A stretch of DNA of 64,000 bases, from positions 1 to 64,000 of the forward strand of contig JAIBAG010000002.1 in the NCBI GenBank assembly GCA_019695305.1, in the 5' to 3' direction. The notes under the pieces are model-generated. The model saw only the letters and a list, made by a program, of their open reading frames with translations. It was not told where the DNA came from and searched no databases. The position numbers and the translations under genes were made by a program. This document shows positions 46,351-62,511 of the stretch, piece by piece; position 1 is the first letter of the stretch, and every line of letters starts with the position of its first letter. Source of the DNA: a bacterium. GTDB taxonomy: Bacteria > UBA10199 > JAIBAG01.

Positions 46351-47220
46351 TTATTTAATAAGTGAAGCCAGTGTCTTGCCAATGTCTGCGGGTGAACGCG
46401 ATACTTTTACACCGGCATCTTCTAATGCTGCAATTTTGCTATCGGCCGTACCTTTACCACCCGAAATAATAGCTCCGGCATGCCCCATGCGTTTTCCGGC
46501 TGGAGCAGAAATACCGGCAATAAAACCGGCCACGGGCTTTTTAACATTGGCCTTAATAAAAGCAGCCGCTTCTTCTTCGGCGGTACCACCAATTTCACCG
46601 ATCATGACAATAGCTTCGGTTTCGGGATCGCGATTAAATAAATCCAAGCAGTCAATAAAGTTGGTGCCATTCACAGGATCGCCACCAATACCAATACAGG
46701 TAGATTGACCCAAGCCCAATTGGCTAGTTTGATACACAGCTTCGTATGTGAGTGTTCCGCTGCGCGATACAATGCCCACTTTTCCTTTTTTATGGATAGA
46801 GCCAGGCATAATACCAATTTTACATTCACCGGGAGTAATAATACCGGGACAGTTGGGGCCAATAAGACGCGTTTTTTTGCCCTGCATGGCTCGTTTTACT
46901 TTTACCATGTCCATCACAGGGATACCTTCGGTGATACAAACTACAAGATCGAGTTCGGCATCTACAGCTTCTAAAATAGCATCGCCAGCAAATGGAGGCG
47001 GCACATAAATAACCGAAACGGTTGCTCCCGTTTTATGCACGGCATCTTTTACCGTATCAAAAATAGGAATGCCTTCAAAATTTTGTCCACCTTTACCGGG
47101 AGTAACACCAGCCACCATTTGGGTGCCGTATTCTTTACAACCCTTGGTATGAAATTGACCGGTAGAACCGGTAATGCCTTGAGTAATAACTTTTGTATTT
47201 TTATTAACGAGTACTGACAT
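46351..47220 (-). CDS. sucD: Succinyl-CoA synthetase alpha subunit
   Basis: The alpha subunit carries the phospho-His relay of succinyl-CoA synthetase. The 289 residues have the CoA-binding N-terminal segment ([15 protein letters not shown]) and the catalytic His motif [17 protein letters not shown] near 245. The gene starts at the end of sucC with a 1-bp gap. In this window the enzyme could use the succinyl-CoA from the ethylmalonyl-CoA pathway as well as from the citric acid cycle. Confidence 0.96.
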
Positions 47221-47221
47221 A

Positions 47222-48421
47222 TTACTTTAATGTAGCCACTACTTTTTTAGCAGCTTCATCCATGGTTTCGGCAGAAATAATAGGTAAACCCGAGTCGGCC
47301 AAAATTTTACGGCCTTGCTCCATATTGGTACCGAGTAAGCGAACAACAAGCGGCACTTTAAGCGACACTTCTTTAGCTGCAGCCACAATACCAGTAGCAA
47401 TCACATCGCATTTCATGATGCCACCAAAGATGTTTACCAAAATGGCTTTTACGTTGGAGTCGGATAAAATAATTTTGAAAGCAGCGGTTACTTTTTCGGT
47501 TGTTGCCCCGCCACCTACATCTAAAAAGTTAGCAGGAGCACCACCGGCAAGTTTAATAATATCCATGGTTCCCATGGCGAGACCTGCACCATTCACCATA
47601 CAGCCAATATTGCCTTCCAAACTGATGTAAGCTAAATCGTATTTCTTCGCTTCAATTTCGTTGGCATTTTCTTCGGATAAATCGCGCAGACCTTCGTAAT
47701 CTTTGTGACGGAAGAGCGCATTGTCTTCAAAATTAATTTTGGCATCAGCAGCAAGTAAATCGCCTTCTTTAGTAACCACCAAAGGATTAATTTCTACAAT
47801 GGCACAATCACCTTCTACATAAGCCCGATATAACGCGCTACAAAACTTGGTAAACTTGCCCACCAAATCGCCGGTTAAGCCCAAACCAAAAGCCAAATCG
47901 CGTCCCTGGTAAGCCTGAAAACCCACGGCAGGATCAACAACAGCCTTGAGGATTTTTTCGGGAGTTTCGGCGGCCACTTTTTCAATTTCCATACCGCCTT
48001 CACTGCTTGCCATAATAAGAACACGCGAAGTTGCTCTATCTAATAAAAGACCCAAATAATATTCTTTGGCAATATTAACACCTTCTTCAACATACAAAGT
48101 TTTTACTTCTTTGCCTTCGGGACCACTTTGGTGGGTTACAAGGATATTGCCTAAAATTTTCTCGGCAACCAGTTTAGCGTCTTCGGCACTTTTAACAACC
48201 TTCACGCCACCATCAAGCACTAATTCTTTTGTACCTTTTTTATAAACTTTACCTTTACCACGCCCGCCGGCATGAATTTGGGATTTAACAACAACAACAG
48301 GGGTTCCCAGTTCTTTGGCCGCCTTAAAAACTTCTTCGGGGTTAGTGGCTTTAATACCCCGAGGAACGGGGACACCATACTTACGGAAAACTTCTTTACC
48401 TTGATATTCGTGGATGTTCAT
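47222..48421 (-). CDS. sucC: Succinyl-CoA synthetase beta subunit
   Basis: The beta subunit supplies the ATP-grasp nucleotide site. The 399 residues begin with [17 protein letters not shown], the family signature, and contain [11 protein letters not shown] and the C-terminal DGDxLLxxIN-type [15 protein letters not shown] segment. It is divergent from the ecm gene with 92 bp between starts, so the two could share a regulatory region. No clear Shine-Dalgarno precedes the ATG. Confidence 0.96.
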
Positions 48422-48513: not shown

Positions 48514-50487
48514 ATGACACAAATGGCATCCAAAAAAGATGATGTGTGGCTGATGCGCACCTATTCGGGGCACTCTACCGCTAAAAAATCCAACGAACTT
48601 TACCGCACCAACCTGGCTAAGGGCCAAACCGGCCTTTCGGTAGCGTTCGATTTACCCACTCAAACGGGTTACGATTCCGATCACCCGGTGGCTATGGCCG
48701 AAGTGGGCAAAGTAGGCGTGCCTATTTGCCACATCGATAACATGACAACTCTTTTTGACCAAATCCCTTTGGGCAAAATGAACACGTCGATGACCATTAA
48801 CGCCACCGCCCCCTGGCTCCTTTCATTATATATCGCCACAGCCGAACGCCAGGGTGCTAGCCAAAGCGAACTTTCCGGCACTACACAAAACGACGTTTTA
48901 AAAGAATATCTCTCACGCGGCACCTACGTATTCCCTCCCGAACCCGCTATTAAGATGACAACCGATGTGATTAGCTACACGGTAAAAAATATCCCCAAAT
49001 GGAACCCGGTAAACGTATGCCCCTATCACTTGCAGGAAGCCGGTGCCACACCTGTGCAAGAATTAGCCTACGGCTTAGCCAATGCCATCTGCTTTTTAGA
49101 TGATGTAAAAAAATCCGGCAATTTGTCTCCTGAAGATTTTGAAAAATCCGTTGGTCGTATTTCGTTTTTTATGGATGCTTCCATCCGTTTTATTGAAGAA
49201 ATCTGTAAAATGCGCGCCTTCAATAAATTATGGTTTGAACTGACGGGTGATCGTTACGGTGTTAAAAATCCCAAATACCGCATCTTCCGTTACGGCGTGC
49301 AGGTTAACTCGCTGGGTTTAACCGAACCACAGCCCGAAAATAACGTTCAACGTATTATTTTAGAAATGTTGGGTATTACTTTAAGTAAAAACGCCCGCGC
49401 CCGCGCTATCCAGCTGCCCTGCTGGAACGAAGCCTTGGGTCTGCCCCGCCCGTGGGATCAGCAATGGTCGCTCCGCATGCAACAGATTTTAGCTTTGGAA
49501 ACTGATCTCTTGGAATACGAAGATATCTTTGAAGGCTCGCATGTGATTGAGGCCAAAACCAACGCGCTAATGGACGAAGCCAAAAAAGAACTCTCCAAAA
49601 TTCTGGAATTAGGTGGCAGCGTAAAAGCGATTGATTATATGAAGAGCGCACTCGTCGCTTCTAACGCCAAACGCATCCGTGCCATTGAAGACGGTGAGAC
49701 AAAAGTGGTGGGTGTTAACTGCTATAAAGAAACCGCCGAATCGCCTCTTACAGTAGATAATGGCGGTATCTTAAAAATTGATGAATCCGCGCTGCGTGAT
49801 CAATTAGACTCGCTCAAATCGTTTAAAGCGAAAAGAAATAACAAAGACGTAGAAGCCGCCATTCAAAACTTAAGCGATACTGCTAAAAGCGGTGGCAACA
49901 TCATGCCCGCCTCCATCGCCGCCGCAAAAGCCGGTGTTACCACCGGTGAATGGGCCGATACTTTGCGCAAAATTTTTGGTGAATACCGCGCCCCTACGGG
50001 CGTGGGTGGTGTAGGCAAGAGCCAAGGGTCTGCCGAAATTGAAAGCGTGCGCGAAAAAGTAAAAGCCTTTGAAACAAAAACAAAAGAAAAGCTGCGTATC
50101 ATTGTAGGCAAACCCGGTTTGGATGGCCATTCTAACGGTGCCGAACAAATTGCCGTGCGCGCGCGTGATGTGGGCATGGAAGTGGTGTATCAAGGCATAC
50201 GCTTAACCCCGCAGCAAATTGTAGACTCGGCCCTGCAGGAAGACGTGCATGTGATTGGGCTTTCTATTTTATCGGGATCGCACTTGGCTTTAATTCCGGA
50301 GCTGATGCGCCTGATGAAAGAAAAAAAAATCACTGATATCCCGGTGGTGGCCGGCGGGATTATTCCGGAAGATGACAAAAAAGAGTTGTTGAAATTGGGT
50401 GTGGCTCGTGTGTATACACCCAAGGATTTTGATTTGAATAAAATCATGAGTGAAATCGTTGATGTGTGCTTAACAGCCCATCAATAA
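48514..50487 (+). CDS. ecm: Ethylmalonyl-CoA mutase (adenosylcobalamin dependent)
   Basis: This enzyme rearranges ethylmalonyl-CoA to methylsuccinyl-CoA, in the ethylmalonyl-CoA pathway. The 657-residue single-chain mutase has the TIM-barrel domain (1-510), with NATAPWLLSLY and QLPCWNEALGLPRPWDQQWS typical of the Ecm clade, and a C-terminal cobalamin domain with DGHSNGAE near 537 (base-off DxHxxG motif). Methylmalonyl-CoA mutase is the alternative; the closest remembered relative sequence is the Rhodobacter-type Ecm, and ccr follows 93 bp later. A TTGACC at 48473 with TATATT at 48492 is only a weak promoter. Confidence 0.85.
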   Translation: MTQMASKKDDVWLMRTYSGHSTAKKSNELYRTNLAKGQTGLSVAFDLPTQTGYDSDHPVAMAEVGKVGVPICHIDNMTTLFDQIPLGKMNTSMTINATAPWLLSLYIATAERQGASQSELSGTTQNDVLKEYLSRGTYVFPPEPAIKMTTDVISYTVKNIPKWNPVNVCPYHLQEAGATPVQELAYGLANAICFLDDVKKSGNLSPEDFEKSVGRISFFMDASIRFIEEICKMRAFNKLWFELTGDRYGVKNPKYRIFRYGVQVNSLGLTEPQPENNVQRIILEMLGITLSKNARARAIQLPCWNEALGLPRPWDQQWSLRMQQILALETDLLEYEDIFEGSHVIEAKTNALMDEAKKELSKILELGGSVKAIDYMKSALVASNAKRIRAIEDGETKVVGVNCYKETAESPLTVDNGGILKIDESALRDQLDSLKSFKAKRNNKDVEAAIQNLSDTAKSGGNIMPASIAAAKAGVTTGEWADTLRKIFGEYRAPTGVGGVGKSQGSAEIESVREKVKAFETKTKEKLRIIVGKPGLDGHSNGAEQIAVRARDVGMEVVYQGIRLTPQQIVDSALQEDVHVIGLSILSGSHLALIPELMRLMKEKKITDIPVVAGGIIPEDDKKELLKLGVARVYTPKDFDLNKIMSEIVDVCLTAHQ

Positions 50488-50515
50488 ACTAACCTAAAAC
50501 AATAGTTTTGGTAAA

Positions 50516-50573
50516 AGAGCCTGAACGCCGGCGAGCCCCTCGAAGGACTCGTCAACCAACAGGCTCTGAGGAG
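50516..50573 (+). promoter_or_regulatory. Stem-loop leader ahead of the ccr ribosome binding site
   Basis: AGAGCCTG at 50516-50523 pairs with CAGGCTCT at 50560-50567. Inside, GAG and CTC segments can extend the fold. The downstream arm directly abuts GAGGAG at 50568-50573, the ccr Shine-Dalgarno, 6 nt before the ATG. It could be a repeat unit or a structure that controls ccr translation. There is no sequence evidence for a ligand. Confidence 0.45.
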
Positions 50574-50579
50574 AATAAA

Positions 50580-51848
50580 ATGACGAAGGAAATCTACGAA
50601 TTAGGTGAAATTCCCCCTCTGGGCGAAGTTCCCAAAAAAATGTATGCACAGGTGATCCGCCCCTCTAACTTTGGCGATCCCAATAAAGCTTTTACTTTAG
50701 AACAAGTAGATGTTCCCGAAATTTTACCCGACGAAGTGTTGGTTTATGTAATGAGCGCCGGTGTAAACTATAATAACGTATGGGCTGCCCTTGGTATTCC
50801 TATCGATGTTACCAAAAACCGCCCGAAAGACCCGTACTGGCCCGATGCCAGCGGTTACCACATTGGTGGTTCGGATGCTTCCGGTATCGTGTGGAAGATC
50901 GGTTCCAATGTTAAAAATTTAAAAGTGGGCGATGAAGTGGTTGTTCACTGTGGCCAATGGAAACAAGATGGCCCGCTTGTTAAACAAGGTAAAGATCCCA
51001 TGTACGACCCCAGCTTCCGCATTTGGGGTTATGAAAATAGCTGGGGCTCCTTTGCCCAGTTTACCCGCGTGCAAGATCACCAATGCTTGCCCAAACCCAA
51101 ACATTTAACCTGGGAAGCATCCAGTGCTTACATGTTAGTGGGCGCTACCGCTTACCGTATGCTTCATGGCTGGAAGGAACACTCTGTAGGTAAAGGCGAT
51201 GTAGTTCTCATCTGGGGTGCTACCGGTGGTTTAGGTTCTATGGCTATCCAAATCGTTAAAGCTGCCGGCGGTATTCCCGTTGCGGTTGTGGGCGGTGAAG
51301 ATAAGTTTGAATTCTGTAAAAAATTAGGTGCTGTAGGATGCATTGATCGTAAAAAATTCAACCATTGGGGTATGTTGCCTCACTGGAAAGATAACGAAAA
51401 ATACAATGCCTGGGCTAGTGGTGCAAAAGCCTTTGGTAAAGCCATTTGGGAAGCTATCGGCGAAAAGAAGAGCCCCAAAATTGTGTTTGAACATCCCGGT
51501 GAAGATACCGTTCCTACCTCCATTTTTGTGTGTGACACAGGCGGTATGGTGGTGATTTGTGCCGGTACCACCGGTTACAATGCTACTATCGATTTACGTT
51601 ACCACTGGATGCGTCAAAAACGTTTCCAAGGTTCGCACTTTGCTAACGATGAACAATCAATTGGATTTAACAACCTTGTATTAGAAGGAAAAGTAGATCC
51701 TTGTTTATCGAAGGTGTTTGAATTTAAAGAAACTGGTAGCTGCCACCAGTTGATGAAAGAAAACAAACACCCTCAAGGTAACATGGCTATTTTGGTGAAT
51801 GCAAAAAAACAGGGATTAAAAAACCTGGAAGAATCCAGAAAAGCTTAA
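50580..51848 (+). CDS. ccr: Crotonyl-CoA carboxylase/reductase
   Basis: This enzyme reduces crotonyl-CoA with NADPH and fixes CO2 to give ethylmalonyl-CoA. I choose the ATG at 50580 (GAGGAG 6 nt upstream) over the longer frame from 50508. The 422-residue MDR-type protein has an Asn in [13 protein letters not shown], the Glu in [15 protein letters not shown] and the His in [12 protein letters not shown], positions that hold CO2 in characterised Ccr enzymes. The NADPH loop is [12 protein letters not shown]. The gene ends in a strong terminator; kdd follows. Confidence 0.9.
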
Positions 51849-51872
51849 ATCCTAACGGATAAGATGAACTAA

Positions 51873-51900
51873 AAAGGGACCCAACCGGGTCCCTTTTTTT
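51873..51900 (+). terminator. Rho-independent terminator after ccr
   Basis: The stem AAAGGGACCC with GGGTCCCTTT (loop AACC at 51883-51886) is GC-rich and followed by a run of seven T. It lies 25 bp after the ccr stop and separates the ecm-ccr unit from the kdd operon. Confidence 0.9.
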
Positions 51901-51991
51901 ATGGTCAACAGAGCAAAATCTATAATAATTTCAATTATTTAAAATAAATAAACTCTTAGGTATTCTTTTTAAAAAAATGACGCAACCCACC

Positions 51992-52021
51992 TTGTGTTAC
52001 TATCCGCCAAAGCGCTACAAT
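51992..52021 (+). promoter_or_regulatory. Probable promoter of the kdd lysine operon
   Basis: TTGTGT at 51992-51997 and TACAAT at 52016-52021 stand 18 bp apart, a plausible sigma-70 type -35/-10 pair with a strong -10. GGGGGT at 52032-52037 is the ribosome binding site 3 nt before the kdd ATG. Together with the terminator just before, this marks the start of a separate operon. Confidence 0.5.
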
Positions 52022-52040
52022 AGAAGAATACGGGGGTAAT

Positions 52041-53072
52041 ATGGTTTTAGAGCGAGGCAATCCGTGGGGACTTCATCGCGTATGCGATACTACCCCGGTT
52101 TTACCCCAAGCCGCCCTCAAGCTTAATAATGCCCTCCCGCTTTTTGATAACGAAATTTTAGTGGAGCTCGAGGCTCTTCAAATTGATTCCGCCAGTTTCC
52201 ATGCTTTAGAACAAAAAGAAAAAATAGACCGAGTAGCTATTGAAACACAAGTGATGGAAATTATTTCATCACGAGGCAAAATGCATAACCCGGTAACCAA
52301 TTCGGGTGGTGTATTTTTAGGAAAAGTAATTGAGGTGGGTAAAAAACATCCCGATTACGGAAAACTTAAAAAAAACGAACGCATCATTTCACTCGTCTCA
52401 CTCACTCTCACCCCACTGCATCTAGAAAAAATTACCGCCGTCGATAAAAGGAAAGAACGCTTAAGTGTTACAGGCCACGCCATTTTATTTGAAACCGGTT
52501 TGTATTCTTTACTGCCAGATGATTTGCCCCAAGGTGTTGTGTTAGCCGCACTGGATGTGTGCGGTGCTCCCGCCCAAGCCAAGCGTCATGTCGGTTCGTG
52601 TGATACCGTCATGATTCTTGGACTTGGGAAAGCAGGCAAGAGTATTGCCCTTATGTGCGAACAACTGGGCGCACGCGTTCTGGGGCTTGATGCGCGTGAG
52701 GAAGCCGTCAACTGGTGCCGTCAGCATATACGCGGCACCTTTGCTAAATTGGATGTTACCAATCCCGTTCTCGTCACCAATTGGGTTTTAGAACACAACG
52801 CAGGAAAACTCGTAGACAAAGCCTTTCATGCCACTAACGTAGAATCAACCGAGATGGCCGGCATTTTACCCGTAAAAGACGGCGGCACCGCTCTCTTTTT
52901 TGGAATGGCCACAGCCTTTGGCAAAGTGGTGCTGGGGGCCGAAGGAGTTGGAAAAGATATTACGCTCTTAATGGGTAGCGGTTATGTGCCCGGACATGCC
53001 GCTCTCATGCTGGGTTTAGTACGCAATAACAAGCCCTACCGGGACTGGCTTGGGGAGAATTACGGCTTATGA
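52041..53072 (+). CDS. kdd: L-erythro-3,5-diaminohexanoate dehydrogenase
   Basis: Kdd oxidatively deaminates 3,5-diaminohexanoate to 3-keto-5-aminohexanoate with NAD in the lysine pathway. The 343-residue MDR-like protein has ERGNPWGLHRV, GKMHNPVTNSGGVFLGKV and the nucleotide-binding MILGLGKAGKSIAL, as in the fusobacterial enzyme. It starts with GGGGGT before the ATG and overlaps kamA by 4 bp. Generic alcohol dehydrogenase is unlikely given the neighbours. Confidence 0.88.
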   Translation: MVLERGNPWGLHRVCDTTPVLPQAALKLNNALPLFDNEILVELEALQIDSASFHALEQKEKIDRVAIETQVMEIISSRGKMHNPVTNSGGVFLGKVIEVGKKHPDYGKLKKNERIISLVSLTLTPLHLEKITAVDKRKERLSVTGHAILFETGLYSLLPDDLPQGVVLAALDVCGAPAQAKRHVGSCDTVMILGLGKAGKSIALMCEQLGARVLGLDAREEAVNWCRQHIRGTFAKLDVTNPVLVTNWVLEHNAGKLVDKAFHATNVESTEMAGILPVKDGGTALFFGMATAFGKVVLGAEGVGKDITLLMGSGYVPGHAALMLGLVRNNKPYRDWLGENYGL

Positions 53073-54271
53073 ACTCGATCATCCATCATAATTTATCGGC
53101 TCAAGAAACCTCCATACGCTTTGCCTGGCAACGTTTTAAACGCTGGGAACACGTAACCCCCGAACAATGGAACGACTGGAAATGGCAGTATCAAAATTTG
53201 GTAACCACGGCGGACGAATTTTTAGAACTTTTTCCTCAATTTAAAGATGAGGTTGAGGGCATTAAGTCTACGATGGGTAAGTATAAATTTACAGCCACGC
53301 CTTATTATTTAAATTTGATTGATGGCAAAAATGCTGAATGCCCCATCAAGCTGCAATCGGTACCCTCCCCGCTAGAAATGAATTTAGAACCCGGCGTAGA
53401 CATGCGTGACCCGTTAGCCGAAGACGCCGATATGCCCGTGCCGGGACTAGTGCACCGCTATCCCGACCGTGTGCTGTTTCTCATTACCGAAGTATGCTCA
53501 CTCTATTGCCGCTATTGCACCCGAAGACGCGTGATTTTAGAAAAAGAAAGCCATATCGACCGCAAAATTGAACGGGCCATTGAATACATTAAAAATCATC
53601 CCGAAATTCATGATGTGATCATTTCAGGGGGTGACGCCCTGGTAGTGGGCGAAAAACTCCTGGAATCGGTACTCTCTCAGCTACGCGCCATGCCGCATAT
53701 TTATACGCTGCGTATTGGGTCGCGTATTCCGGTTGTATGCCCCATGCGCATCACACCCTCTTTAGTGAGCATGCTTAAAAAGTATCAGCCTCTGTATTTT
53801 ATGACCCATTTTAACCATCCCTATGAGATTACCCCGGAGGCAAAAAAGGCTTGTGCCATGCTGGTAGATAATGGTATTCCCATTATGAATCAGGCAGTTT
53901 TGCTAAGAAAGATAAACAGTTGTCCGGATATTATGAGGGAGCTCTGTTATGGCCTCATCCAGATGAGAGTAAAGCCCTATTACTTGTATCAATGCGATCT
54001 CTCCGAAGGAATTGGCCATTTCCGGACACCGGTGGAAAAAGGTTTAGAAATTATGAAGAGCCTGCGCGGGCATATTTCGGGGTTGGCAATCCCCACATAT
54101 GTAATTGATGCTCCGGGCGGTGGCGGAAAAATTCCTATTTTGCCCGATTATGTTGTAGGGCGCACAGGGAAGGAAATTACGTTAAAAAATTACGAAAACC
54201 AAATCTTTACCTACACCGAACCTGCCTGGACCGATTGTGAGTGTTCTACTTCTAAAGAATTTACGAAGTAG
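53069..54271 (+). CDS. kamA: Lysine 2,3-aminomutase (radical SAM)
   Basis: KamA converts L-lysine to L-beta-lysine with a [4Fe-4S] cluster, S-adenosylmethionine and PLP. The 400 residues have the radical SAM cluster cysteines C143, C147 and C150 (VCSLYCRYCTRR) and the PLP Lys at about 354 in DAPGGGGKIPILPDY. The zinc-binding C-terminal cysteines are only partly present (CEC). EpmB (smaller, for EF-P) is ruled out by length and context. It overlaps kdd by 4 bp. Confidence 0.93.
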   Translation: MNSIIHHNLSAQETSIRFAWQRFKRWEHVTPEQWNDWKWQYQNLVTTADEFLELFPQFKDEVEGIKSTMGKYKFTATPYYLNLIDGKNAECPIKLQSVPSPLEMNLEPGVDMRDPLAEDADMPVPGLVHRYPDRVLFLITEVCSLYCRYCTRRRVILEKESHIDRKIERAIEYIKNHPEIHDVIISGGDALVVGEKLLESVLSQLRAMPHIYTLRIGSRIPVVCPMRITPSLVSMLKKYQPLYFMTHFNHPYEITPEAKKACAMLVDNGIPIMNQAVLLRKINSCPDIMRELCYGLIQMRVKPYYLYQCDLSEGIGHFRTPVEKGLEIMKSLRGHISGLAIPTYVIDAPGGGGKIPILPDYVVGRTGKEITLKNYENQIFTYTEPAWTDCECSTSKEFTK

Positions 54272-54340
54272 GCTCCCTTTATTTTCATTTTAAGAAAAGT
54301 ACGATTCTACGATGGTGCGCTATCATCAACCATACACTAG

Positions 54341-54377
54341 CGAACGCACGATCGCACGAACGCACGAATGTACGAAC
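54341..54377 (+). repeat. Degenerate octamer tandem repeat before kamD
   Basis: Units CGAACGCA, CGATCGCA, CGAACGCA, CGAATGTA and a partial CGAAC run head to tail and end directly before the kamD ATG at 54379. They occupy the ribosome binding site position, where no Shine-Dalgarno is seen. The 107 bp between kamA and kamD otherwise hold nothing recognisable. Confidence 0.7.
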
Positions 54378-54378
54378 A

Positions 54379-55944
54379 ATGGCAAAAATTAATCTCGACC
54401 GCGACAAGGTTGACCAGTGCCGCTCTATCGCCGAACACCTGGTGCATCCTGTCCAAAAGTATATTCATCTGCATTCCACTGTTTCTATTGAGCGCTCCAT
54501 TTTACGTCTCATGGGGCTCACCGGCGCCGAAGAGCTGCCCGACATGCCGCCCTACCCGCTGGCCAACATGATTTTAGATAAATTGGATAAACGCCGCCTT
54601 CCTTTAGGCATTGCAGCCTGGATGGCATCGGCTAGAAATGACCATCCCAAATTATCCATAGAAAAAATTGCCGCCAAAATTATTAATGGCGAAATTGACA
54701 TCAACACACTACCCGAACCTCCCAATGCCGATATTACTAAAAAAATCTTAGCCCCCTGGGTGCAAGACGGCATTGCCCGTATTGATGCCAGCCGTAAGCA
54801 TAAAGAGCGCATGCGCGGCCGTATGAACCGGGTACGTTTACCGTTACGCTATCTTATTGTTGCCACCGGCAATATTTATGAAGACGTAAAGCAAGCCGTG
54901 GCCGCTGCCGAACAAGGCGCCGATATTATTGCCGTGATTCGCTCCACCGCGCAAAGTTTACTCGATTACGTTCCCGTGGGTGCCACCACCGAAGGTTTTG
55001 GCGGCACTTACGCCACACAAGAAAATTTTCGTATCATGCGCCAGGCGCTAGATGAAGCCTCCAACCGTTTGGGCCGTTATATTAGGCTAACAAATTACTC
55101 TTCGGGATTATGTATGCCCGAAATTGCTGTAATGGGCGCACAGGAAAATTTGGATTATTTATTAAATGACTCGATGTACGGCATCCTCTTCCGCGATATC
55201 AACATGAAGCGCACATTTGTAGATCAATACTTTTCGCGCTTGGTTGTGAGCCGTGCGGGCATTATTATTCAAACAGGTGAAGATAATTATCTCACCACTG
55301 CCGAAGCTTACGAAAACCATCATCAGGTATTAGCCTCGCACTTTATTAACGAGCAATTTGCCAAAAAAGCAGGCCTGCGTGACGAACAAATTGGTTTGGG
55401 CCACGCCTTTGAAATGGACCCCGATATTGAAGACAGTTTTATTTATGAACTGGCTATGGCGCAAATGATACGTGATGTGTTTGTGCGCCATCCCATTAAG
55501 TACATGCCACCCACCCGCCACAAAACGGGCGATATTATGCAAAGCCATGTGCTGGATGCCATGTTTAACTTGATTGGTAGCGCTACCCGCCAATCGGTGC
55601 AATTATTGGGCATGGCCACCGAAGCCATTCATAACCCGTTTTTAATGGACCGCTTTGAAAGTTTAAAAAGTGCCAATTATATCTTTAAAGCAGCAGCCTC
55701 TCTTTTTGACGAATTGCAGTATAATAATAATGGAAAACTTGCACGAAGAGCTCGCACTGTTTTGGATAATACGCTAAAATATCTGGAAGATATCAACTCG
55801 ATGGGCCTTATGGAATCTATCGAAAAAGGATATTTTGCCAATATGCCGCGCGCGCGTGACGGCGGCCGTGGGCTGGATGGAATTTTCCAAAAAGCCCGCA
55901 AATACTACAACCCCTTCCTGGAGCATTTGGAACCGGAGGATTAA
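54379..55944 (+). CDS. kamD: Beta-lysine 5,6-aminomutase alpha subunit
   Basis: With KamE it moves the terminal amino group of beta-lysine to C5, making 3,5-diaminohexanoate, using adenosylcobalamin and PLP. The 521 residues match the OAM-alpha/KamD family: start MAKINLDRDKVDQCRSIAEH, then YATQENFRIMRQALDEASNR and the KTGDIMQSHVLDAMFN region. The start lacks a Shine-Dalgarno; the octamer repeats occupy that place. KamE begins right at its stop with GGAGG in the last codons of kamD. Confidence 0.92.
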   Translation: MAKINLDRDKVDQCRSIAEHLVHPVQKYIHLHSTVSIERSILRLMGLTGAEELPDMPPYPLANMILDKLDKRRLPLGIAAWMASARNDHPKLSIEKIAAKIINGEIDINTLPEPPNADITKKILAPWVQDGIARIDASRKHKERMRGRMNRVRLPLRYLIVATGNIYEDVKQAVAAAEQGADIIAVIRSTAQSLLDYVPVGATTEGFGGTYATQENFRIMRQALDEASNRLGRYIRLTNYSSGLCMPEIAVMGAQENLDYLLNDSMYGILFRDINMKRTFVDQYFSRLVVSRAGIIIQTGEDNYLTTAEAYENHHQVLASHFINEQFAKKAGLRDEQIGLGHAFEMDPDIEDSFIYELAMAQMIRDVFVRHPIKYMPPTRHKTGDIMQSHVLDAMFNLIGSATRQSVQLLGMATEAIHNPFLMDRFESLKSANYIFKAAASLFDELQYNNNGKLARRARTVLDNTLKYLEDINSMGLMESIEKGYFANMPRARDGGRGLDGIFQKARKYYNPFLEHLEPED

Positions 55945-56682
55945 ATGAACGAACAAGTCCGCCCGTATGGTGACCGTACCGATGATGGTATGGTGCAGAT
56001 GAGTTTTACTCTCCCCGTATCGGCCTCGCCCGAGGCCAAAGAAGCGGCAGCCCAACTGGTAGCTAAAATGGGCTTTGAAAAAGTGCTGGTTTGCCACATG
56101 GAGCAAATCACCAGCGGCTACACACTTTTTTACGTTTACGCCAAAACATCTCATTCCATCGACATGAGCAGTATTCATGTTCCTAAACTAGAAAATCCTG
56201 TATTGGCTTTTGATGCCATCAACTCTTTTATTGAAAAAGAAATTGGAAGAAAAATTGTAGTAATTGGCGCCTGCATTGGCTCGGATGCGCACACAGTAGG
56301 TATTGATGCCATTTTTAACATGAAGGGTTATGCGCACGATTGGGGCTTTGAACGTTATCCCATGATGGATGCTCATAATTTACGCGCACAAGTGGCTGTA
56401 GAAGATTTGTCTAAAAGAGTGGCCGAGTTAAAAGCCGATGCTGTTCTCGTATCGCGTGTTGTCACCCAGCGCGATGAACACATTACAGAAATGAAAAAAT
56501 TTTTAGAGGCTTTAAGTCAAACCCCCGATGTACCACCTCATCTTATTAAAATTTGTGGTGGGCCACGCATTAGCCACGAAGAAGCTCTTAGCTGGGGTTT
56601 TGATGCAGGCTTTGGTCCCGGCACCAAGCCCTCGCATGTGGGCAGTTTTATTATTCACGAGCTTAAAAAGAGACTGGGCTAA
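55945..56682 (+). CDS. kamE: Beta-lysine 5,6-aminomutase beta subunit
   Basis: This subunit holds cobalamin and PLP. The 245 residues contain the DxHxxG motif as D114-A-H116-T-V-G, with H116 the cobalt ligand, and K127 eleven residues later (FNMKGY), the position of the PLP Schiff-base lysine in the clostridial enzyme. Both key residues are therefore present. Its ATG follows the kamD stop with no gap, and kal begins 5 bp after its stop. Confidence 0.93.
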   Translation: MNEQVRPYGDRTDDGMVQMSFTLPVSASPEAKEAAAQLVAKMGFEKVLVCHMEQITSGYTLFYVYAKTSHSIDMSSIHVPKLENPVLAFDAINSFIEKEIGRKIVVIGACIGSDAHTVGIDAIFNMKGYAHDWGFERYPMMDAHNLRAQVAVEDLSKRVAELKADAVLVSRVVTQRDEHITEMKKFLEALSQTPDVPPHLIKICGGPRISHEEALSWGFDAGFGPGTKPSHVGSFIIHELKKRLG

Positions 56683-56687
56683 TTTTT

Positions 56688-57074
56688 ATGAAACAAAAAA
56701 ATTCTAATTCTACCAGTTTTAAAGTTCGCATCAGCCAGCAAGATGTTCATTATGGCGGCAATATTGCCAGCGGCGCTAAAGTTTTAGAATTATTTGGCGA
56801 TGCCGCAACAGAACTATTAATCCGTCACGACGGTGACGAAGGTTTATTTAGAGCCTATCAATCCATAGATTTTTTAGCTCCTGTTTATGCCGGTGATTTT
56901 TTAGAGATTAGCGCTTCTATTGTGAACGAAGGTACTACATCGCGTGATATGGATTTTACGGCTAAAAAAATTATTGAAGGCTCCCGCGACGAGAAAAAAC
57001 CGTCTAAAGCAACCTTGTTAAAAGAACCCATCATTGTGGCCAAGGCCAAGGGAACTTGTGTTGTGAAGAAGTGA
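56688..57074 (+). CDS. kal: 3-Aminobutyryl-CoA ammonia-lyase
   Basis: Kal removes ammonia from L-3-aminobutyryl-CoA to give crotonyl-CoA. The 128-residue hotdog-fold protein has ISQQDVHYGGNIASGAKVLE, GDAATELLIRHDGDEGLFRA and FLAPVYAGDFLEI, matching fusobacterial and clostridial Kal closely. The TGA stop (57072-57074) lies inside the second copy of the heptamer hairpin repeat. It is the gene that delivers the substrate of Ccr. Confidence 0.9.
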   Translation: MKQKNSNSTSFKVRISQQDVHYGGNIASGAKVLELFGDAATELLIRHDGDEGLFRAYQSIDFLAPVYAGDFLEISASIVNEGTTSRDMDFTAKKIIEGSRDEKKPSKATLLKEPIIVAKAKGTCVVKK

Positions 57075-57141
57075 ATAGTGGATAGTGTATAGTTGATGGT
57101 AAAAAAGTTTACTATCCACCATTCACTATCCACCATCCACC
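57071..57141. repeat. Heptamer-built hairpin repeat, copy 2
   Basis: Left arm 57071-57099 is GTGAATA, GTGGATA, GTGTATA, GTTGATG plus G. Right arm 57112-57141 is complementary to GTGGATG/GTGGATA/GTGAATG units. The kal stop lies in the left arm, and the kce ATG follows the right arm after 2 nt. Same family as 11101-11174 and 62444-62511. Confidence 0.85.
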
Positions 57142-57143
57142 AT

Positions 57144-57956
57144 ATGCATCCTCTTCTTATTACCGTTGCTGGCGTTGGCGCCGAACTCACTAAAAAAGAC
57201 ACCCCCTATTTACCGTCAACTCCTAACGCTATTATTGAAGAAGCTCTCCGTATTGAACAAGCCGGAGCGCATATTTTTCATCTGCATATTAGAGATCAAA
57301 AAGGAAAACCTACGCTCGATTTAAAACTGGCAAAAAAGGTGGTAACCGAAATACGTAAAAAAACTGATCTTATTATTCAAATATCCACGGGCGGATCTAT
57401 TAACGACTCTTACAAAAAAAGAATAAAAATTTTAGATGTAAAACCCGATATGGCCTCGCTCACGCTGGGCAGTGTTAATTTTGGAACTGATGTGTTTTTA
57501 AACCCCCTGCCCTTTATTGAAAAACTGGCCGCCACCATGAAAAAGAAGCGCATTGTGCCCGAACTTGAAATTTTTGACGTGGGCATGGTAGACACAGCTT
57601 ATCATCTTATTAAAAAAGAACTCCTTAAACCGCCCTATCATTTTAACATTATTTTAGGAGGACCCGGCTGGCTTGCCGCCAGCGTCCAAAATTTAGATTA
57701 TATTATTCAAAAGTTGCCACAACCGTGCACCTGGTCGGCCTCGGGTGTAGGAAAAAACCAATTGCCCATGATTGAGTACGCTATCAAAAACGGCGGACAT
57801 GTGCGGACAGGGTTAGAAGATAATATTTATCTCAAAAAAGGCGTTCTTGCCAAAGGGAATGCCGAGCTGGTAGAACAGGTTCTGGTTTTAGCTCAACACT
57901 ATAAACGGCACATAGCCACCCAAATAGAGGCCAAATACACACTATGTCAGGCATAG
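57144..57956 (+). CDS. kce: 3-Keto-5-aminohexanoate cleavage enzyme (BKACE family)
   Basis: Kce transfers acetoacetate from 3-keto-5-aminohexanoate and acetyl-CoA, giving 3-aminobutyryl-CoA and acetoacetate; it is a zinc-dependent TIM barrel. The frame begins MHPLLITVAGVGAELTK at 57144 and runs 270 residues with IFHLHIRDQKGKPTLD (zinc His pair) and the ILGGPGWLAASVQNL segment. An earlier in-frame start at 57093 is inside the hairpin repeat and reads as [11 protein letters not shown]. The stop overlaps the next gene by 13 bp. Confidence 0.88.
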   Translation: MHPLLITVAGVGAELTKKDTPYLPSTPNAIIEEALRIEQAGAHIFHLHIRDQKGKPTLDLKLAKKVVTEIRKKTDLIIQISTGGSINDSYKKRIKILDVKPDMASLTLGSVNFGTDVFLNPLPFIEKLAATMKKKRIVPELEIFDVGMVDTAYHLIKKELLKPPYHFNIILGGPGWLAASVQNLDYIIQKLPQPCTWSASGVGKNQLPMIEYAIKNGGHVRTGLEDNIYLKKGVLAKGNAELVEQVLVLAQHYKRHIATQIEAKYTLCQA

Positions 57957-58873
57957 GCGTTATATTAAATCCGCATTCCAAGCGTTACAAAAAAGATCCC
58001 GACAAAGCAAAAAACATGTCGTTTATTGTGGGCGACCGCGCCTCATGTCACGCCACCGAAACAATAGACGATTTAAAACGCACAGCACGCGAATTTAAAG
58101 AACGCGATGTAGATGTTTTGGCCATTTCTGGCGGCGACGGCACCATTCATTGCACGCTCACCACTTTTATTCACGAATATGGCGATAAGCCGCTACCCCG
58201 TGTGGCTTTACTCCGCGGTGGCACTCTTAATACTATTGCGGCCACCATGGGAGTTAAAGGCACACCCGAAAGTATTTTGTCGTCGGTACTTGTCAAATAT
58301 CACGAGAACGTTCCCTTTAAAACACGCGAGTTACAGCTGATGAAAATTAACGACAAATTTGGATGTATCTTTGGCATGGGTGTTATTTATAATTTTATGG
58401 CCGATTATTATTCCAAAGGTTCGCTCTCGCCCGTAGGTGCCGCTAAAACATTGGTGCGCGCCATCGGTTCGGCGCTTATCAACGGCGCCTTTGCTCGTAA
58501 AATGTTTGATCGTTTTGATGCGGAGGTAACTGTTAACGGTAAAAAATGGCCTTTTGCCAATTATTCGGCCTTGTATTCGGGCTCCATCAATCAATTGGGT
58601 TTAGATTTTAGAGTTTTTTACTTGGTAGATGAAGTTCCAGACATTTTTCATGCTATTGGTTTTTCACTCCCCCCGCGCAGCGTGCTTAATTACGTGCCTA
58701 AAATGAAAATGGGAAAACCCGCTGGCTGTCCAAATTTAATAGAAGAACCAGCTAAAGAAATGCTGATAAAACTTGCTAAACCTCTTCCTTACACCATTGA
58801 CGGCGATATGTTAGCGCCTGAAGATACTTTTCATTTAACAGTGGGGCCTAAAGTAACTATTTTGGTTAGTTAA
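57944..58873 (+). CDS. Diacylglycerol/lipid kinase family protein
   Basis: The 309-residue protein has the DAGK catalytic motif SGGDGTIHCTLT (about 62-73, GGDGT) and the N-terminal GVILNPHSKR segment, typical of YegS/DgkB-like lipid kinases. Such enzymes phosphorylate diacylglycerol, sphingoid bases or similar lipids. It overlaps the kce end by 13 bp, but this may be only tight packing; no role in lysine metabolism is implied. The lipid substrate is unknown. Confidence 0.82.
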   Translation: MSGIGVILNPHSKRYKKDPDKAKNMSFIVGDRASCHATETIDDLKRTAREFKERDVDVLAISGGDGTIHCTLTTFIHEYGDKPLPRVALLRGGTLNTIAATMGVKGTPESILSSVLVKYHENVPFKTRELQLMKINDKFGCIFGMGVIYNFMADYYSKGSLSPVGAAKTLVRAIGSALINGAFARKMFDRFDAEVTVNGKKWPFANYSALYSGSINQLGLDFRVFYLVDEVPDIFHAIGFSLPPRSVLNYVPKMKMGKPAGCPNLIEEPAKEMLIKLAKPLPYTIDGDMLAPEDTFHLTVGPKVTILVS

Positions 58874-62443: not shown

Positions 62444-62511
62444 GGTGGATGGTGGATAGTGAATGGTGGATAGCAAGTCTTTCCATCCACTACCCACCAT
62501 CCACCATCCAC
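62444..62511. repeat. Heptamer-built hairpin repeat, copy 3
   Basis: Left arm from 62444 is GTGGATG, GTGGATA, GTGAATG, GTGGATA; right arm to 62511 is complementary to GTGGATG, GTGGATG, GTGGGTA, GTGGATG. It begins just after the tRNA-Leu and ends 5 nt before the aguB ATG. Same family as copies at 11101 and 57071. Confidence 0.85.

Follow-up and report, generated by a model that had tools for sequence, protein, structure and literature searches.

Lysine 3,5-diaminohexanoate genes beside ethylmalonyl-CoA pathway genes in a UBA10199 bacterium: two modules that may meet at crotonyl-CoA

Several described systems come close to the locus reported here, in which genes of the lysine 3,5-diaminohexanoate pathway lie beside the ethylmalonyl-CoA (EMC) pathway genes ecm and ccr (statements on cited papers refer throughout to the portions of them that were available). 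In Phaeobacter inhibens, label from 13C-lysine was traced via glutaryl-CoA as far as crotonyl-CoA, which entered the EMC pathway directly, with parallel oxidation of lysine carbon via 3-hydroxybutanoyl-CoA (PMC5653290); the general idea of lysine entering the EMC pathway, which an earlier note on this DNA also put forward, was thus already demonstrated there. The aminomutase route of lysine degradation has been described as a fermentation to butyrate and acetate (PMC3149608; the route also in PMC8473912). In the open-access literature, as far as its available text goes, we found no paper uniting the diaminohexanoate route with the EMC pathway: the available portions of PMC5653290, PMC8473912, PMC2948502, PMC8067321, PMC4619459, PMC10521678, PMC13134046 and PMC8415551 do not unite both routes, and in those of PMC7602337 and PMC11484514, which mention UBA10199, lysine is not the subject.

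The window, a stretch of 64,000 nucleotides (positions 1 to 64,000 of contig JAIBAG010000002.1, forward strand, assembly GCA_019695305.1), belongs to a bacterium of the GTDB lineage Bacteria; UBA10199; JAIBAG01, whose genome (G000) is a 95.6% complete draft of 2.78 Mb in 58 contigs. Between 48514 and 57956 we found eight plus-strand open reading frames, ecm, ccr, kdd, kamA, kamD, kamE, kal and kce, each with the family matches expected from the names that the earlier note had given them:

48514..50487, plus strand: ecm, ethylmalonyl-CoA mutase, 657 amino acids, mutase and B12-binding domains (PF01642 and PF02310)
50508..51848, plus strand: ccr, crotonyl-CoA carboxylase/reductase (TIGR01751; match to 4gi2)
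51871..51898, plus strand: intrinsic-terminator hairpin between the ecm-ccr and kam units (by folding)
52041..53072, plus strand: kdd, L-erythro-3,5-diaminohexanoate dehydrogenase (NF052381)
53069..54271, plus strand: kamA, lysine 2,3-aminomutase (TIGR03820 as best family; 2a5h)
54379..55944, plus strand: kamD, lysine 5,6-aminomutase alpha (NF052384)
55945..56682, plus strand: kamE, lysine 5,6-aminomutase beta (NF052385)
56688..57074, plus strand: kal (NF052388)
57093..57956, plus strand: kce (PF05853; NF052387 as best NCBIfam match; 2y7d)

We consider it fairly probable, judging from gene content, that these are two modules of known kinds which meet at crotonyl-CoA, the EMC pathway acting as the route to C4 acids in a host that probably respires and lysine acting as one of its feeders. 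The genes and their families, described below, are direct observations, as are the genome complement and the co-occurrence patterns.

On the lysine side, Kdd (NF052381, 215.7 bits; cut-off 200), KamD (NF052384, 740.3 bits; cut-off 600), KamE (NF052385, 328.4 bits; cut-off 280) and Kal (NF052388, 169.6 bits; cut-off 160) scored above the cut-offs of their families. The best NCBIfam match of KamA was the lysine-pathway family TIGR03820 at 497.3 bits, under the cut-off of 525.4; it matched lysine 2,3-aminomutase 2a5h at 460.9 bits, and D293 and D330, which presumably bind the lysine side chain, were both aligned as D. The best NCBIfam match of Kce was NF052387 (331.5 bits, under the cut-off of 382), next to 292.1 bits for PF05853 and a best solved match, 2y7d, at 219.5 bits. 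By these matches KamA, KamDE, Kdd, Kal and Kce qualify as members of the lysine 3,5-diaminohexanoate pathway. Plasmid records matching KamD numbered 2. A second protein of the Kce family (BKACE), 31-38% identical to Kce, was observed in 18/46 genomes of the phylum, at 35973-36827 of contig C6 in G000.

On the EMC side, Ccr scored 558.8 bits against TIGR01751 (cut-off 378.55) and 471.9 bits against the solved Ccr 4gi2. Aligned to 3hzz ('Crotonyl CoA reductase'), it keeps the motif asparagine, glutamate and histidine, and tyrosine replaces phenylalanine, likewise in 4gi2; we take these asparagine, glutamate, histidine and phenylalanine/tyrosine motifs to be CO2-binding. The NCBIfam matches of Ecm held no family model of its own. 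Of 425 matching plasmid records, the best 12 share 57-64% identity with it over 98-99%; these 12 are annotated as 'protein meaA' (2; meaA is, we assume, Ecm) or 'methylmalonyl-CoA mutase family protein' (1) or carry no annotation (9). There are two PF01642 proteins in G000, at 431.8 and 751.8 bits, the first of which matches 'protein meaA' at 60.8 and 63.5%. These sequence matches set Ecm apart from methylmalonyl-CoA mutase, and ecm adjoins ccr in several relatives as well as in G000.

The later EMC genes, for which the earlier note had proposed a search and whose absence, together with Bcd/EtfAB beside another lysine copy, it would have counted against itself, are present on contig C15. There epi, an mcl-like gene, mcd and mch lie on the same strand inside a 6.7-kb segment, mcd and mch being separated by four frames of the opposite strand. 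The best solved match of Mcd was (2S)-methylsuccinyl-CoA dehydrogenase 8ciw, with 567.6 bits and an alignment spanning residues 9-547 of 548 (next chain, 312.1 bits), Mch scored 80.1 bits for PF19315 (cut-off 26.5) and matched the solved chains 4e3e and 8hgn ('Beta-methylmalyl-CoA dehydratase', 100.3 bits), and Epi reached 168.9 bits for TIGR03081 (cut-off 114.95). The Mcl-like lyase (L008:11577-12620) belongs by Pfam to the HpcH/HpaI family and has the same company of EMC genes in relatives. Gene position and context are the grounds for assigning the lyase step to it, and it is the weak point of the predicted path. Elsewhere in the genome, contig C30 holds another mutase, of methylmalonyl type (Mcm large subunit), and contig C7 a PccB-like carboxylase of 514 amino acids. 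Because the later EMC genes, the Mcm-type mutase and the PccB-like carboxylase are in the genome, a predicted path encoded from lysine-derived crotonyl-CoA to malate and succinyl-CoA, with its lyase placed by context, is supported. A search of G000 at E 1e-40 gave no isocitrate lyase; to our knowledge, organisms with the EMC pathway such as Methylobacterium extorquens have no isocitrate lyase.

In the mechanism that we propose, the kam unit would convert lysine via 3,5-diaminohexanoate to acetoacetate and 3-aminobutyryl-CoA, Kal would turn 3-aminobutyryl-CoA into crotonyl-CoA, Ccr would carboxylate it and, after epimerization, Ecm would form methylsuccinyl-CoA by rearrangement. The enzymes encoded on the other contig, Mcd, Mch and the Mcl-like lyase, would then lead from methylsuccinyl-CoA to glyoxylate and propionyl-CoA and onward to malate and succinyl-CoA, both of which a respiring cell needs if it has no isocitrate lyase, and the EMC pathway would be a general source of C4 acids from acetyl-CoA and crotonyl-CoA in a genome where we found no isocitrate lyase. 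Three matches to the oxidase family PF00115 occur in G000, and the host is probably oxygen-breathing. The net CO2 fixation that the earlier note expected finds no support here: Ccr would co-assimilate CO2, yet no net gain is evident, and the cell can also oxidize acetyl-CoA.

We compared 46 genomes of the phylum (phylum and class are represented by the same 46, and no genus or family mate of G000 is among them), with thresholds of E 1e-40 for isocitrate lyase, E 1e-30 for PF00115 and >=40% identity for Kce; the only correction for kinship in the co-occurrence tests was a count at family level. Ccr occurred in 21/46 genomes and KamD in 27/46 (counted at >=50% identity, which drops from 35 genomes the 8 with 30-42% matches, and in G011 and G021 from fragments of 252 and 147 residues), with both in 18. 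Both Mcd (19/46) and an Ecm-type mutase (19/46, a lower bound, since G042 has a partial ecm at a contig end) were confined to the 21 Ccr-positive genomes; Ecm type was assigned by score class, leaving out an IcmF-like match in G011 and two fragments in G010, and at the thresholds applied Mcd was missed in G016 and G042 and Ecm in G014 and G042. KamD was present in 18/21 Ccr-positive vs 9/25 Ccr-negative genomes (p 0.0009) and, by family, in 12/12 Ccr-positive vs 3/9 (p 0.0015). Among the 27 Kam-positive genomes, PF00115, the haem-copper oxidase family, was matched in 17/18 with Ccr vs 2/9 without (p 0.0003), and among those with completeness >=90% and contamination <=5% in 12/13 vs 0/7 (p 0.0001). 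PF00115 also covers nitric oxide reductases, so its matches are putative oxidases. Kce was found in 25/27 Kam-positive genomes and in no others, and isocitrate lyase in 4/46 genomes and 0/21 Ccr-positive ones. Taken across the phylum, these patterns suggest to us, as a tentative proposal to which we give a little less than an even chance, that a fermentative aminomutase lysine route has turned respiratory and biosynthetic, with Ccr and the EMC pathway as the sink in oxidase-bearing lineages and the lysine genes kept without Ccr in oxidase-less ones. Three Kam-positive, Ccr-negative genomes (G006, G008 and G009) gave no match to PF00115 or to the acyl-CoA dehydrogenase of contig C35 (described below) at the thresholds applied.

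Several observations weigh against an EMC pathway fed by lysine. Among the enzymes, the solved 9kva (putative crotonyl-CoA reductase) and AntE outscore the Ccr 4gi2 as matches to our Ccr; the Mcl-like protein is CitE-like, scoring 459 bits with 3qqw ('Putative citrate lyase') and 357.9 bits with 3r4i, likewise named citrate lyase, and only 58.4 bits with malyl-CoA lyase 4l9y; and KamA is absent or just 32-34% similar in the kam loci of G027, G029 and G041. Among the counts, the isocitrate lyase pattern does not reach significance by itself (p 0.11), the Ccr-PF00115 link falls to 11/12 vs 1/3 (p 0.08) when counted by Kam-positive family, and the co-occurrence may stem from respiratory lifestyle and kinship. 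As to the fate of crotonyl-CoA, a Bcd/SCAD-like acyl-CoA dehydrogenase is encoded on C35 of G000, hydration and cleavage to acetyl-CoA could be an alternative, and a 3-hydroxybutyryl-CoA dehydrogenase-family gene lies by ccr in the EMC loci of 5/15 relatives (L166, L167, L168, L173 and L180; one copy model-checked). CitE-like proteins near EMC genes may themselves be candidate beta-methylmalyl-CoA lyases. A reading of ecm and ccr as polyketide-extender paralogues was rejected in view of the other EMC genes in the genome and of a six-gene cluster in a relative, the higher scores of AntE and 9kva being the point against that rejection.

Since a Bcd/SCAD-like gene is present, with matches (E 1e-90) in 40/46 genomes and 38 of them at >=65% identity, exclusive routing to Ccr is not supported; we infer the fluxes, and with them the entry of lysine-derived crotonyl-CoA into Ccr as opposed to its oxidation or reduction. 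Could lysine crotonyl-CoA instead end in butyrate, an outlet of the fermentation type? The C35 gene speaks for it, as do Bcd-like genes 44-46% identical to it near KamD in 8/80 loci from named genomes. These 80, which include three from the order of G000 and some short ones (3.6 kb and up), are the best of 364 KamD loci. We hold the butyrate outlet to be very unlikely, with no lysine-pathway family among the 10 scanned of 14 C35 reading frames and with the three PF00115 matches and the EMC gene set in G000. Genes for butyrate fermentation (Bcd/Etf, butyryl-CoA:acetoacetate CoA-transferase) were not among the 20 scanned proteins at 42003-63389 of the window, Etf and the CoA-transferase not having been sought genome-wide.

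Lysine might also be merely dismantled, the crotonyl-CoA from Kal passing to acetyl-CoA by beta-oxidation while Ccr draws on a pool of acetyl-CoA and 3-hydroxybutyryl-CoA and the two pathways simply coexist. The dehydrogenase-family genes by ccr in five relatives fit this account, and so do six matches to the acyl-CoA dehydrogenase family PF00441 in G000, Mcd included. A strict separation of the two pathways is unlikely because crotonyl-CoA is free and common to both, and because Phaeobacter showed both fates together (PMC5653290), and we regard dismantling alone as rather improbable.

On the chromosome, ecm and ccr are 20 bases apart, ccr and kdd 192, kdd and kamA -4 and kamA and kamD 107; further on, the gaps are 0 bases (kamD-kamE), 5 (kamE-kal), 18 (kal-kce) and -13 (kce and the DAGK-like gene that overlaps it). 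The terminator that the earlier note had seen between ccr and kdd was confirmed at 51871-51898 as a 12-pair hairpin with a T run, folding on the plus strand at -19.4 kcal/mol (z -3.95; 0/200 shuffles as good). A terminator pattern scan lists this hairpin for the minus strand only, and its terminator-like sites were at chance level overall (15 vs 15.7 in shuffles), so that the call relies on the fold of one hairpin; a promoter scan of the same kind gave 11 promoter-like sites vs 20.8 in shuffles, and a promoter seen by eye before kdd did not pass. Given the hairpin between ccr and kdd, the genes are best read as two predicted transcription units, ecm-ccr and kdd-kamA-kamD-kamE-kal-kce-DAGK. The earlier claim of one operon from kdd to kce therefore stands as to a separate unit after the terminator and fails as to its end, the DAGK-like gene following kce. 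A joint lysine/EMC operon, in the sense of one transcription unit kept in relatives, was not found.

In 1/18 genomes with both Ccr and KamD, G000 itself, we observed the ccr-kam arrangement; the sequence beside ccr or kdd excluded it in 16, and in G028, of the family of G027, both ccr and the kam genes run into contig ends. In G027 ccr and the kam genes are on one contig, 605 kb apart. Genes from both sets were carried by 0/47 loci of relatives (24 kam and 23 EMC loci), and ccr or ecm was near KamD in 0/80 of the best named loci. A conserved ccr-kam union, and with it the gene union that the earlier note had proposed as a system, is rejected in view of the loci of relatives and the named KamD loci, and the side-by-side placement looks like a local accident with no conserved joint operon. 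EMC gene order is itself loose in the phylum, since these genes are clustered in some relatives (ccr-ecm-mch-mcd-mcl-epi in G027, all on the same strand within 7.6 kb) and broken up in others, such as G044 and G045 from the same taxonomic order as G000, which have them on three contigs (ccr; ecm; mch-mcd-mcl-epi); it is unstable within that order, and a kam neighbour was seen in G000 only.

These loci also bear on the possibility that adjacency is functional, in that co-localization or shared control would channel lysine crotonyl-CoA to Ccr in a dedicated lysine-assimilation locus. The ecm-ccr and kam genes are on the same strand, 192 bases apart, with near-complete pathways on both sides; a strong terminator separates the units, though, and the arrangement is excluded in 16/17 other double-positive genomes (G028, as said, is cut by contig ends), which leaves this in our view unlikely. 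An error of the draft assembly at the ccr-kdd junction would account for an arrangement seen in no other genome compared, in a draft of 58 contigs. We judge it highly improbable: G+C stays between 0.417 and 0.473 in 1.5-kb steps over 44-62 kb and shows no pronounced shift at the junction, and the best matches of Ccr (G044, 81%) and of KamD (G045, 74%) both come from genomes of the same order.

The kam unit ends in a further gene:

57944..58873, plus strand: DAGK-like gene, seventh of the kam unit (PF00781, 50.1 bits)

In 16/24 kam loci of relatives (L141, L143-L146, L149-L151, L153, L155-L157, L159, L160, L205 and L206), the last gene of the kam unit is likewise a divergent DAGK/YegS-like one. 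Five of the 8 loci without it are cut by contig ends, and G019, G027 and G028 do not have it there. It remains behind kamE in G006, G007, G009 and G041 although kce is on another contig. In 13 aligned sequences GGDGT and DGD are invariant, and the gene occurs in 3/80 of the best named KamD loci, all three from the order of G000.

The surrounding features are as follows:

46351..47220, minus strand: sucD, context only
47222..48421, minus strand: sucC, context only, divergent from ecm with 92 bases between
54341..54377, no strand: 8-base tandem repeat CGAACGCA in the kamA-kamD gap

The sucCD neighbourhood, which the earlier note had brought in as a possible user of succinyl-CoA, was discarded as pathway evidence, being divergent upstream context only. 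For ccr, the start is probably ATG 50577 rather than TTG 50508, because GAGGAG precedes it and the solved relative AntE begins there. Seven-base tandem repeats (GGTGGAT-like, either strand) lie at 57070-57097, 57111-57143 and 62444-62473; one lies within the first part of the kce frame, for which reason the true start of kce may be ATG 57144. Short repeats of one other kind (CGAACGCA/CGATCGTA-like) were observed both in the kamA-kamD gap at 54341-54377 and directly upstream of mcl on C15 (L008:12560-12660).

What would be new here is the aminomutase/Kal source of crotonyl-CoA, a lysine-fed EMC pathway being known by the glutaryl-CoA route. If our reading is true, the 'fermentative' pathway from lysine to butyrate also gives C4 acids to respiring bacteria, their crotonyl-CoA going into the EMC pathway in place of butyrate. 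The reading yields a clear genome-based prediction for other phyla, namely Kam with Ccr in oxidase-bearing lineages and Kam without Ccr elsewhere, and it draws attention to an uncharacterized kinase-like gene that accompanies the lysine genes.

Set beside the lysine fermentation of Clostridium and Fusobacterium, G000 has the same enzymes and the same reaction order to crotonyl-CoA (PMC3149608, PMC8473912); unlike there, its unit is without Bcd/Etf and ends in a DAGK-like gene, and its genome holds oxidase-family and EMC genes. The Cloacamonas variant lacks kal and uses an aminotransferase, whereas G000 has kal (PMC3149608). Kal-made crotonyl-CoA has been proposed to join another CO2-fixing pathway, 3-hydroxypropionate/4-hydroxybutyrate, in ammonia-oxidizing Thaumarchaeota (PMC8397731, the available portions of which do not mention ethylmalonyl-CoA). 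As in the EMC pathway of Methylobacterium extorquens, the Ccr, Epi, Ecm, methylsuccinyl-CoA dehydrogenase and mesaconyl-CoA hydratase steps are encoded; in contrast to it, the lyase of G000 is CitE-like, the genes are in two places and there is an extra source of crotonyl-CoA (PMC2948502). Similar in outcome is Phaeobacter inhibens, where, as predicted here, lysine-derived crotonyl-CoA starts the EMC pathway and carbon enters the tricarboxylic acid cycle at succinyl-CoA and malate, by 13C labelling there and by genes alone here (PMC5653290). The difference lies upstream: Phaeobacter reaches crotonyl-CoA through glutaryl-CoA, by a cadaverine route and a parallel pipecolate route, and G000 would reach it through aminomutases, 3,5-diaminohexanoate and Kal (PMC5653290).

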